NCBI RefSeq assembly: GCF_010104355.1
Contig: NZ_CP044972.1
Coordinates: 310,001-374,000, forward strand
Length of the DNA stretch: 64,000 nucleotides
Reading direction: 5' to 3'
Source: Hydrogenophaga sp. PBL-H3
GTDB taxonomy: Bacteria; Pseudomonadota; Gammaproteobacteria; Burkholderiales; Burkholderiaceae_C
The notes under the pieces were generated by a model. That model had not been told where the DNA came from. It was given only the letters and a program-made list of their open reading frames with translations, and ran no database searches. Position 1 is the stretch's first letter. Each line of letters begins with the position of its first letter. Made by a program: the position numbers and the translations under genes. This document shows positions 30,147 to 32,588 of this stretch, in pieces.

Positions 30147-31133
30147 CTACCGCAACCAGCCGCGCTTGCGGAAATACAGCATCGGCACCACGGCCGAGAG
30201 CACCATCAGCGCCAGCGCCACCGGGTAGCCGTATTGCCATTGCAGCTCGGGCATGAATGCGAAGTTCATGCCATAGCTGCTGGCCACCAGCGTGGGCGGC
30301 AGCAGCGAAACACTGGCCACCGAGAAGATCTTGATGATCTTGTTCTGGTTGATGTTGATGAAACCCACCGTGGCGTCCATCAAGAAGTTGATCTTGTCGA
30401 ACAGGAAGGCCGTGTGGCTGTCCAGCGAATCGAGGTCGCGCAGGATCTGGCGCGCGTCTTCAAACTGCTCGGCACTCAGCAGGCGGCTGCGCATCATGAA
30501 GCTGACCGCGCGACGCGTGTCCATCACGTTGCGGCGGATGCGGCCCGACATGTCCTCGTGGCGCGCGATGGCTGAGAGCGCCTCGCTCAGCAGGTTGTCC
30601 GAGGCGTTGCTGTTGAGCACCTTCTTGCTCACGGTTTCGATCTCGTCGTAGATGTCTTCCAGCGTGTCGGCGCAGTACTCGGCGTCGGCGTCGAACAGCA
30701 TCAGGAGCACGTCCTTGGCGTTCTCGATCAGGCCCGGCATGCGGCGCGCGCGCATGCGCAGCAGGCGGAACACCGGCACGTCCTCGTCGTGGATGGAGAA
30801 CAGCACACCCTGGCTCTTGAGGGTGTCGTTGTGCTCGTTCAAGATGAAGGCCACCCGCACCGCGCGCGGGTCCTCTTCGTCGTCGATCAAAAAGTCGGAG
30901 CGCACATGCAGTTCGCCGTTGTCTTCCTCGAAGAAGCGGGCCGACTCCTCAATGTCCTCGTCCATCGCGTCTTCGGGGATCGACAGGCCAAAGTGTTGCT
31001 TGACCCAGCGGCGCTCTTCGGGGGTGGGGTCTTCCAGGTCGACCCAGATTGGCTTGAATTGAGCGAGCTCTTCGAGCGACTCGATCTCTTCCTGGAAGAG
31101 GCGGCCATTGGCCAGGGTGAATACGTTGAGCAT
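30147..31133 (-). CDS. corA: Magnesium/cobalt transport protein CorA
   Basis: 328 residues. A large acidic cytoplasmic domain (about 1-260), the long stalk helix, then two C-terminal membrane helices with the selectivity motif SYGMNFAFMPE near 285 and a basic tail (YFRKRGWLR). Forms a pentameric Mg2+ channel. It converges on mtnN with only 6 bases between stops. The 207-base leader upstream holds a short reading frame and strong alternative RNA helices, described separately, which suggests control by magnesium or translation. GGGAG lies 7-11 bases before the ATG. Confidence 0.95.
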   Translation of the reverse strand: MLNVFTLANGRLFQEEIESLEELAQFKPIWVDLEDPTPEERRWVKQHFGLSIPEDAMDEDIEESARFFEEDNGELHVRSDFLIDDEEDPRAVRVAFILNEHNDTLKSQGVLFSIHDEDVPVFRLLRMRARRMPGLIENAKDVLLMLFDADAEYCADTLEDIYDEIETVSKKVLNSNASDNLLSEALSAIARHEDMSGRIRRNVMDTRRAVSFMMRSRLLSAEQFEDARQILRDLDSLDSHTAFLFDKINFLMDATVGFININQNKIIKIFSVASVSLLPPTLVASSYGMNFAFMPELQWQYGYPVALALMVLSAVVPMLYFRKRGWLR

Positions 31134-31153
31134 GGAGCGCTCCCGGCGAAGTC

Positions 31154-31308
31154 TGCTGTCTGAAAGGGCGGGCCGCGTGGGCGGGCCCGAGGGCGGTAAA
31201 GGTGCTTTCAGCCAGCAAGCCGCCCGATGCAGGTCGCCGCGCGGGCGGCGGCGATCAGACGGTGACGGGGGTGGCTGAAAGCACGCAACTGGGGGGCGTG
31301 CTGTCCAT
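31154..31308 (-). promoter_or_regulatory. corA mRNA leader with two mutually exclusive helices
   Basis: On the minus strand (mRNA sense) segment A GTGCTTTCAGCCA (31284-31272) is perfectly complementary over 13 bases to segment B TGGCTGAAAGCAC (31214-31202). Segment B, extended to TGCTGGCTGAAAG (31217-31205), is also complementary over 12 of 13 positions to segment C CTTTCAGACAGCA (31166-31154), which lies 21-33 bases before the corA ATG. A and C therefore compete for B. Segment A is inside a 17-codon reading frame (codons 9-13), so ribosome position can decide which helix forms. This is the layout of translation-dependent attenuation; the signal is unknown, magnesium being the obvious candidate. 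No match to a known riboswitch is recognised. Confidence 0.65.
31255..31308 (-). CDS. Putative corA leader peptide (17 codons)
   Basis: ATG 31308 with GGAGAG centred about 7 bases upstream opens a 17-residue frame, MDSTPPSCVLSATPVTV, ending in TGA 121 bases before corA. It contains a Pro-Pro pair at codons 5-6, a possible slow site, and its codons 9-13 form one arm of the 13-bp inverted repeat of the leader. Leader peptides of this size control Mg2+ transporters in enterobacteria (mgtL before mgtA), though no sequence similarity is claimed. Confidence 0.5.
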   Translation of the reverse strand: MDSTPPSCVLSATPVTV

Positions 31309-31339
31309 GAGGCTCTCCGTGGGTAAATTCGACCGGCGA

Positions 31340-31348
31340 ATTATGGCA
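31340..31348 (-). promoter_or_regulatory. Putative extended -10 promoter of corA leader
   Basis: Minus strand TGCCATAAT matches an extended -10 (TGnTATAAT) at 8 of the 9 positions including n. It overlaps the patatin stop codon and would start transcription near 31333, about 25 bases before the leader-peptide ATG. Confidence 0.35.
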
Positions 31349-32588
31349 CCGCTGCCGTTTCCGAAGGTGGCGCATGAGGTGCCATGAAGTGCATCAGTTC
31401 GTCCTTTCGACGCCAGGCATCGTGTTCGCCGAGTTCGATGAGGGCATGCACGAAACCGGGCTCGAACAGCAGGTAACTGGCCAGCGACGCGGCGCTGCCG
31501 GCCGCGCCCCGCGCGGTGTCCAGCGCGCCCAGTCCGACCAGGGTGTTGCGGGTGGGCGCAGGCAATTCGCCAATGTGCTTGCGCGCCAGCTCGTCGAGCG
31601 AAAAGCTGGGCTGAATGGCCAACACGTCGACCGGGCGGTAAGGCAGGGCCGCGGCCAGGGCCGGCGGCAGGCGCGACAAGGTCTGGCTCACGCGCTGGGC
31701 CTGCTCCACGTCGGCTTGCAAGGTGTCGTGAAACACGCTGGCCATGGCATGGCCTGCGATGGTGCCGGCCGTGGGATCGCCCGCCGTGCGCGCCACCATG
31801 CCCGAGCGCTGCGGCTGCCCCACGCCGATCACCAGCACGCGGCGCGCGCCGAAGTGGATGGCCGGCGACAGCGGCGAGAGCTGGCGCATCGAGCCGTCGC
31901 CAAAATGTTCCTTGCGGCCTTCGACCCACAGCGGCACCGATGGAAAGAGGAACGGGATGGCGCTGGACGCCATCAGGTGTTCGATCGTGATGGGCTGGAA
32001 AGTGGCCCGGCGTCCCGGGCGGTGCCACGGCTGCACCGTGTGGCCGGAGTGGGTCTGGCAGAAAGTCCAGTGTTCACCGGTCGTGTAGCTGGATGCGGTC
32101 ACGCCCAGCGCTTGAATGGCGCCTTGCTCCAGCGCGAACTCCAGGCCCGGCAGGTCGATTGCCCTGTGCAATGTGTTCACCAGCGGCAGCGTGTCCAGCA
32201 AAGCGCGGTGGCGCCGCACCTGGCGCGCCAGCGTCCAGCCCGCCACCACCCGGTTGGCGCGCACCCAGCCCGGCGCTTCCAGTCGGTAGACCTGCTCGGA
32301 ACGCAGTCCCATCCAGAACGTGGCGAGCCGCGGCAGCGCAGACAAGCCTTGCAAGGCGATGCTGCCCAAGTAGACCGCATTGAGTGCGCCGGCCGAGGTG
32401 CCGAACAACCATTGAAAGGGAAACACCTGGCTCCCGGCAGGCTGCATGGCGGCCAGCGCCTTGAGCACACCGGCCTGGTACGCGGTGCGCGCGCCGCCAC
32501 CCATCAACACCAACGCGCAGGCGTCGGGCCTCACGTCGTGTGAGGAGGGGGTCAGCATGTTGTGCGTGATGATGGTGTCGAGGGACAT
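31341..32588 (-). CDS. Patatin-like phospholipase family protein
   Basis: 415 residues. Oxyanion loop LVLMGGGARTAYQAGVLKA near 27-45, nucleophile elbow LFGTSAGALNAVYLG near 62-76, and the dyad Asp in FGDGSMRQLSPL near 215 (DGS in place of the usual DGG/DGA). Ser-Asp dyad lipases of this family hydrolyse phospholipids or neutral lipids. No signal peptide, so probably cytoplasmic or membrane-associated. It follows the hybrid kinase gene by 26 bases on the same strand. Confidence 0.88.
   Translation of the reverse strand: MSLDTIITHNMLTPSSHDVRPDACALVLMGGGARTAYQAGVLKALAAMQPAGSQVFPFQWLFGTSAGALNAVYLGSIALQGLSALPRLATFWMGLRSEQVYRLEAPGWVRANRVVAGWTLARQVRRHRALLDTLPLVNTLHRAIDLPGLEFALEQGAIQALGVTASSYTTGEHWTFCQTHSGHTVQPWHRPGRRATFQPITIEHLMASSAIPFLFPSVPLWVEGRKEHFGDGSMRQLSPLSPAIHFGARRVLVIGVGQPQRSGMVARTAGDPTAGTIAGHAMASVFHDTLQADVEQAQRVSQTLSRLPPALAAALPYRPVDVLAIQPSFSLDELARKHIGELPAPTRNTLVGLGALDTARGAAGSAASLASYLLFEPGFVHALIELGEHDAWRRKDELMHFMAPHAPPSETAAVP

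Follow-up and report, generated by a model that had tools for sequence, protein, structure and literature searches.

What does the short stretch of DNA upstream of corA, the gene for a magnesium/cobalt transporter, do in Hydrogenophaga? In the window analysed here, a stretch of 64,000 nucleotides, an original prediction made from the letters alone had pointed at this place to a 17-codon reading frame and two mutually exclusive RNA helices; that observation was right and understated the case. Taken together, the window and its relatives suggest, with a probability of roughly 60%, that the leader is a cis-acting attenuator of corA controlled by an upstream open reading frame (uORF), of the same kind as corL and mgtQ and with an architecture of its own. 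The attenuator is probably responsive to Mg2+, a judgement based on the identity of the gene and on precedent. A search of an open-access library, in which subscription papers are mostly missing, turned up no account of any corA leader from Burkholderiales.

The corA leader in the window

The 13/13 inverted repeat with which the original prediction began is correct by direct pairing of the two minus-strand arms, which are separated by 57 nt, and one of them, A1, does lie inside a frame with its own Shine-Dalgarno (SD) site (Table 1). Among 1500 dinucleotide shuffles of the 207 nt between the two genes, one contained a perfect inverted repeat of at least 13; a 12/13 partner downstream of the middle arm appeared in 5 of 5000. 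The overall folding of the leader is mildly unusual (z -2.08, with 2 of 200 shuffles equal or better).

Table 1. Features of the corA leader and its surroundings in the Hydrogenophaga window
Feature	Coordinates	Strand	Basis or remark
corA, magnesium/cobalt transporter	30147..31133	-	TIGR00383, 243.5 bits (cut-off 200.75)
corA Shine-Dalgarno site GGGAG	31140..31144	-	sequence
Segment 4 = A3 CTTTCAGACAGCA	31154..31166	-	12/13 pairing with 31205-31217; nearest relatives only
B2 TCAGAC, B1 complement within A3	31158..31163	-	mixed support
Segment 3 = A2 TGGCTGAAAGCAC, partner of A1 in helix P2	31202..31214	-	13/13 pairing with 31272-31284
uORF MDSTPPSCVLSATPVTV, 17 codons, corL-like	31255..31308	-	ATG 31308 to TGA 31255
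B1 GTCTGA, possible B2 partner	31255..31260	-	at uORF stop codon
Segment 2 = A1 GTGCTTTCAGCCA	31272..31284	-	uORF codons 9-13
P1 3' strand CGTGCT, overlapping A1	31280..31285	-	
Segment 1 = P1 5' strand AGCACG, within uORF	31297..31302	-	
uORF Shine-Dalgarno site GGAG	31315..31318	-	sequence
Extended -10-like box TGCCATAAT	31340..31348	-	sequence; overlaps stop codon of upstream gene (31343-31341)

Of 156 non-redundant leaders, 134 carry a TGN[C/G/T]ATAAT box within the 70 nt that precede the uORF start, 115 of these at 35-40 nt before it; a generic -35/-10 promoter scan gave no match at the -10-like box of the window leader. Judged by that box, the window transcript would begin close to 31333. 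There is no terminator-like site between 31100 and 31500 of the window, and an attenuator of the trp type, ending in an intrinsic terminator, was rejected for this reason. The identity of the leader with a known Rfam family or riboswitch was likewise rejected for want of an Rfam match: the 64-kb window yields none at the gathering score, the window leader has just two matches (E 1.4 and 6.4), both on the other strand, and the corA loci of six relatives give none at E up to 1.

Two further features of the locus may be recorded here. The frame upstream of corA, which ends at 31341, looks patatin-like by its motifs, its family matches being weak; the protein encoded there (31344-32588, minus strand) matches anti-phage phospholipase models weakly, at E 2.7e-4 and 9e-4, far under the cut-offs of the models. 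At the start of corA itself (31142-31128 in the window), GAGC before the start codon and GCTC at it might pair into a small hairpin enclosing the ATG; as raw counts, GAGC..GCTC occurs at the corA start in 110 of 156 leaders and TGAGC..GCTCA in 52 of 156.

Samples and scope

Of 60 relatives, 53 gave a CorA-type match, as did 144 of 150 genomes spread over the family f1, with some distant paralogues among the matches. The named records among the nearest matches are Hydrogenophaga (Comamonadaceae), and "family" stands here for f1, which is possibly wider than the Comamonadaceae of NCBI. The upstream regions number 218 (30 + 28 + 80 + 80 named), with some genomes entering twice, and 203 of them are unique over the last 150 nt; in the f1 sample the upstream DNA is that of 110 of the 144 matching genomes, from the top of the list down with G149, G173 and G176 skipped. 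From 187 frame picks, five were dropped by eye (L109, L125, L137, L179 and L208, of which L125 has a second plausible frame) and four more for a stem score below 17 (L122, L126, L132 and L216), leaving 178, and removal of duplicates and near-duplicates brought the set to 156 leaders. By construction this regex-selected set requires a GAN codon 2, and the unbiased count for that codon is the one from the stem-anchored set described below. Type II leaders were assigned by a peptide rule, which places L039, L090 and L189 among them with peptides or stems nearer to type I. The covariation alignment comprises 73 of 104 type I leaders, those with short loops only, while the nested folding and SD accessibility of type I include L054 with a wrong corA distance (1 of ~104 leaders).

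The Hydrogenophaga version of the leader, searched as a pattern with three mismatches allowed, turned up in just two of 200 family genomes, each a Hydrogenophaga, so that the comparison is carried by diverged forms. A covariance model of frame and helix matches 73 of 150 family genomes at E up to 0.01. Its 67 matches below 1e-6 come one per genome, each immediately upstream of corA, and the matches in the window (6.5e-5) and in G083 (3.7e-4) have that position too. Apart from six weak matches elsewhere (E 8e-4 to 8e-3), what remains is these stems matched on the opposite strand. Many of the genomes matched were also the source of the training leaders, and the count thus locates strong copies and says little on the finding of new ones. 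The model seems to miss type II leaders.

Outside the family, at the level of order and class, no frame of the form M[D/E]x(0-4)P with 4-40 codons was found in 28 corA upstream regions from 26 genomes, a thin sample, beside which E. coli is the only enterobacterium covered by name, and a count that leaves aside L234-L242 (where the match begins inside a longer frame) and includes L252, L258 and L260, whose anchors lie about 20-60 nt within the gene.

A conserved leader frame

Anchoring on the stem alone, with the peptide unconstrained, recovers the stem in 149 of the 203 unique corA upstream regions. In 147 of these 149 an ATG, GTG or TTG stands 23 (109), 26 (37) or 29 (1) nt before A1, and none has a start codon at offsets of 22, 24 or 25; one of the two exceptions, L077, carries CTG at the start position. 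Codon 2, which was left free along with every other peptide codon, is acidic in 144 of the 147 frames (117 Glu, 27 Asp). The spacing classes between start and A1 core, as seen in L061 (23 nt), L001 (26 nt) and L104 (29 nt), differ by whole codons.

The regular expression for the uORF matches 177 of the 218 regions; over 20 rounds of dinucleotide shuffling it matches 1.8 on average and never more than 5. In the 156 leaders that it selects, all 138 GCTTYC cores found share a single reading frame with respect to the start. The start codons are ATG (72), TTG (60) and GTG (24), the peptides run from 7 to 20 residues, with 7 residues in 86 leaders, and a uORF Shine-Dalgarno site is present with a strict core in 118 and in looser form in 12, the other 26 having none. 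The codon before Arg (or Trp, Cys, Gln) in the 73 type I leaders is AGT in 61, TCT in 7 and CCT in 5, and the two-base exchange between AGT and TCT keeps the Ser residue of P-S-R. The start codon, the acidic second codon, the offsets of 23, 26 and 29 nt, the interchange of ATG, GTG and TTG and the AGT/TCT exchange, considered together, argue that the leader frame is under selection and that this selection acts on its translation.

The peptides take several forms. The Hydrogenophaga frame starts as M[D/E]S[T/M]PPS[C/R] in 29 of 30 loci, L024 being without a frame; the type I form of many other genera reads METYPSR* or METYPSW*, stopping at the helix, and the peptides grouped as type II are MDSDHPR*, MDVPPSR* and similar. 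Named records with the frame belong to Hydrogenophaga, Variovorax, Comamonas, Acidovorax, Polaromonas, Rhodoferax and Limnohabitans. What follows P-S-R varies freely: many genera stop at once, and Hydrogenophaga, Variovorax and some others read on into A1. The conserved peptide core is M-[D/E]-x-x-(x)-P-S-[R/C/W], whose P-S-R codons adjoin A1. The Pro-Pro pair, which the original prediction had named as a possible place of Mg2+-dependent slowing, is not the conserved part: most other genera have a single Pro (METYPSR*, MESSPSR), and the features held in common are the acidic second codon and P-S-[R/C/W] beside A1.

In family f1 the frame is missing upstream of corA in L024, L034/L151, L036-L038, L040 and L059. 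Several of these have a -10-like box near corA, and they are possible cases of natural leader loss.

Helices of the leader

The helix formed by A1 and A2, P2, has 94.6% of its cells paired in the 73 type I leaders, with 42 double-change cells against a shuffle mean of 12.0 and 3-22 in slid-partner controls. On the corA tree (43 taxa) it shows 14 double changes that keep the pairing, against 2.2 for random columns. In Hydrogenophaga the A1:A2 helix is 93.4% paired and nearly invariant, with 1 double change on the tree against 1.0, and the genus hence holds little information on this point. The covariation from outside Hydrogenophaga argues that A1:A2 is conserved and under selection.

A third helix within the uORF, P1, was missing from the original prediction, as were the -10-like box and the conservation of the frame and of A1:A2 across the family. 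Over 34 Hydrogenophaga leaders 99.0% of the cells of P1 are paired. Its variable pair, with both sites at third codon positions, is A-U in 17, G-C in 14 and G-U in 2, and is open in one leader; the genus provides 14 double-change cells and, on the tree, 3 double changes against 0.2. Because P1 and A1:A2 share bases, they compete.

The original prediction had set mutually exclusive helices and a translated-looking frame before corA, and had proposed looking in relatives for covariation and for conservation of the frame; both were found, the covariation in the double-change counts and on the corA tree. A transcribed relic, or a chance repeat with no regulatory role, might be read from the relatives that have no leader (L024 within the genus, L034/L151, others), an explanation that a conserved frame and stems with compensatory change render extremely unlikely.

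In genera other than Hydrogenophaga, a second helix emerges between the 3' half of A1 and the corA SD region. In the type I alignment these are 72.6% paired, with 67 double-change cells against 35.4, and slid controls reach 9-42. The three pairs shared with neither P2 nor the SD core reach 51.4% pairing and have 50 double-change cells against 27.4 in shuffles, with 2-27 in slid controls of the same type. Partner-swap tests, in which relatedness is still present, give z 10.3 for 103 type I leaders and p 0.0096 for the 18 leaders grouped as type II; in Hydrogenophaga the swap test gives no signal for this pairing (z -0.1). The helix is looser than P2: its double changes on the corA tree number 10, against 4.1 (P 0.02), and its breaking changes 82, against 90.2. 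In type I, 31% of the leaders have an uninterrupted A1:SD helix of at least 7 pairs; with SD regions swapped the figure is 17%. The signal for pairing between loop and downstream region comes from the position-specific swap tests only, and a free search for any such pairing gave none (fraction of leaders with shuffle p<=0.05: 0.03, 0.06 and 0.06). We take A1:SD to be a second helix in these genera, one that excludes the upper half of A1:A2, with modest support from the tree.

Conserved, competing helices with covariation are also what would be expected of a metal-binding RNA that senses Mg2+ or Co2+ itself and overlaps a short frame by chance, and a riboswitch candidate before corA has been published (PMC6429828). 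Such a riboswitch is nonetheless improbable, given the evidence of selection on translation in the start codon, the acidic codon 2, the whole-codon offsets, the start interchange and the AGT/TCT exchange; the best-conserved stretch outside the stem falls in the P-S-R codons, where conservation is inseparable from coding constraint.

Pairing of B1 with B2 was also followed. Within the genus the first pair is paired in 75.0% of cells and five pairs in 83.7%, with weak covariation; support in Hydrogenophaga is mixed, at z 4.45 and z 1.3 in two swap tests and 1 double change on the tree against 0.6. Type I gives z 4.6, with B1:B2 aligned with the A1:SD helix as one longer hairpin, and type II gives no support (z 0.1). 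A pseudoknot of A1:A2 with B1:B2, once our main alternative, is possible.

The third arm, A3, is the part of the original prediction that stands for the window and fails for the genus. Its 12/13 pairing with the middle arm is present, and among 34 non-redundant Hydrogenophaga leaders it stands at 12/13 in L001 and L002 and at 11/13 in L004, the other 31 having 7-9/13. With at least 11/13 in just 3 of 34, A3 is a local variant, and as a conserved partner it was rejected. In the window, A1:A2 and P1 + A2:A3 fold within 1.1-3.2 kcal/mol of each other, and which of them is the lower depends on the chosen ends, two of four going each way. The competitors P1 (segments 1:2) and A2:A3 (3:4) against A1:A2 (2:3) have the layout of mgtQ, and A2:A3 ends 9 nt before the corA SD site. 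Nested folding of the window leader with codons 6-12 occupied pairs A2 with the A3 side at 0.76-0.86. The near-equal folds and this last value favour the exact version first proposed, in which the middle arm picks A1 or A3 and a pause at Pro-Pro decides; it is very unlikely nevertheless, in view of the rarity of A3 in the genus and the absence of Pro-Pro from most leaders of other genera.

A proposed model for the control of corA

The attenuator that we favour would work as follows. A ribosome that is held up or aborts within the opening codons, where an acidic codon 2 is combined with Pro as in the destabilisation of ribosomes at low Mg2+, would let A1:A2 form and would leave the start site of corA free (ON). 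A ribosome that reaches the P-S-R codons would melt A1:A2, permit the SD-proximal helix and turn corA OFF. Lost translation of corA might then lead to Rho termination in the C-rich spacer as a possible addition.

Ribosome positions were mimicked by masked bases in nested folding. In 103 type I leaders the mean pairing of A1:A2 is 0.52-0.54 with the P-site at codons 1-3, compared with 0.32 without a ribosome; at codons 5-6 A1:A2 is at most 0.05 and A1:SD peaks at 0.49-0.52, and at codon 8 both are close to zero. In Hydrogenophaga, as the ribosome moves from codon 5 to codon 8, A1:A2 goes from 0.82 to 0.00, and pairing with the stretch between -40 and -4 before corA, expressed as a scaled index, from 0.18 to 0.59. 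From this shift of folding with ribosome position we infer that an early ribosome would mean ON and one at P-S-R OFF, a direction that the published results on corL and mgtQ fit. The assignment is not forced. The predicted SD accessibility in Hydrogenophaga is nearly unchanged at any ribosome position, and in type I the SD region is predicted to be freed, not hidden, once the ribosome stands at codon 8 or further on; a clean two-state SD accessibility was not obtained in Hydrogenophaga by nested folding.

The main rival to masking of the SD region is Rho-dependent termination in its place, with translation of the uORF exposing a C-rich rut site between A2 and corA. The spacer from A2 to the SD site has raw C and G fractions of 0.49 and 0.16 in 102 type I leaders, 0.50 and 0.23 in 34 Hydrogenophaga leaders, 0.46 and 0.25 in 18 of type II and 0.48 and 0.24 in the window, and Rho control has been reported for corA of E. 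coli (PMC11552253). Termination by Rho leaves the covariation between A1 and the flank of the corA SD site unexplained, and we consider it unlikely as the full account; it may act jointly with SD masking.

If attenuation through the uORF is indeed at work here, uORF control of the main Mg2+ transporter would be common in a large environmental family and would reach beyond the enterobacteria. The more than 150 natural variants, with matched changes in peptide and RNA, would allow a direct test of what ribosomes read at low Mg2+, and could tell the share of the peptide from that of the RNA.

Relation to known systems

The corL/corA leader of E. coli and Salmonella was reportedly the subject of work by Kriner and Groisman in 2015 and 2017. 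The E. coli corA uORF is annotated as ysgD (YsgD), has a TTG start and reads MDTPSRYWL..., which fits M[D/E]x(1-4)P[S/T]R, a match at the level of pattern only. Its position and start codon make it all but certain that the ysgD frame is the published corL. In E. coli, too, there is no Rfam match. The uORF of the E. coli corA leader (L245, 1719-1930) ends in CAACTCC, the common 3' half of A1 in type I, and the corA SD site there, GGGAGT, is also as in type I; this likeness is possibly due to chance.

In E. coli and Salmonella the uORF upstream of corA is named corL and, in E. coli, starts with UUG; its translation is inversely related to corA, and the leader is controlled by Rho through stems A-E and rut sites (PMC11552253). 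Both leaders have corA downstream, a short uORF and two exclusive folds, and the UUG start of E. coli has its counterpart in the TTG of 60 of the 156 leaders here; at pattern level, the N-terminus M-D-T-P-S-R of E. coli resembles M-[D/E]-x-x-P-S-R. They differ in that the frame here has 7 codons in 86 of 156 leaders, in the stem A1:A2, the enterobacterial stems being taken by their description, and in the competitor helix, which outside Hydrogenophaga extends to the corA Shine-Dalgarno site.

It is tempting to ask whether a nascent peptide that reads Mg2+, M-[D/E]-(x)-P-S-R, stands before corA in both Comamonadaceae and enterobacteria, with sampled intermediates that do not have it, and is coupled to different RNA switches, SD masking in one and Rho in the other, the RNA half having been rewired and the peptide half kept. 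We hold this tentatively, as a reading with the odds somewhat against it. Were it true, the RNA half would be freely rewired even within the family, with A1:SD in other genera and P1 + A2:A3 in Hydrogenophaga.

The original prediction had cited mgtA as its precedent. Besides mgtA, and nearer than it, stand corL of corA (PMC11552253) and mgtQ of mgtB (PMC8092293). According to PMC8092293, mgtQ is an 8 aa uORF upstream of Salmonella mgtB, lying between mgtC and mgtB; its acidic codons abort translation and expose the mgtB ribosome-binding site (RBS), which pairing 3:4 hides, so that control is at translation, and they have a role in transporter production at low Mg2+. Compared by described layout, the leader studied here shares with mgtQ a short frame with an acidic codon 2 and the opposition of segments 1:2 and 3:4 to 2:3. 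It differs from mgtQ in preceding corA, where mgtQ serves mgtB from an intergenic position between mgtC and mgtB, and in its 3:4 helix: A2:A3 in the window ends before the SD site and occurs in the nearest relatives only, whereas 3:4 of mgtQ hides the RBS.

Two further systems are related by the descriptions given of them. The mgtL leader of mgtA has a PhoP-controlled promoter and, according to PMC11552253, more proline and acidic residues than corL; acidic and proline codons, alternative folds and a Mg2+ transporter downstream, as PMC11552253 describes them for mgtL, are common to mgtL and to the leader described here. The corA motif of Stav et al. 2019, a riboswitch candidate with 325 representatives from gammaproteobacterial genomes and metagenomes (PMC6429828), resembles the leader described here in being a structured RNA directly upstream of corA.
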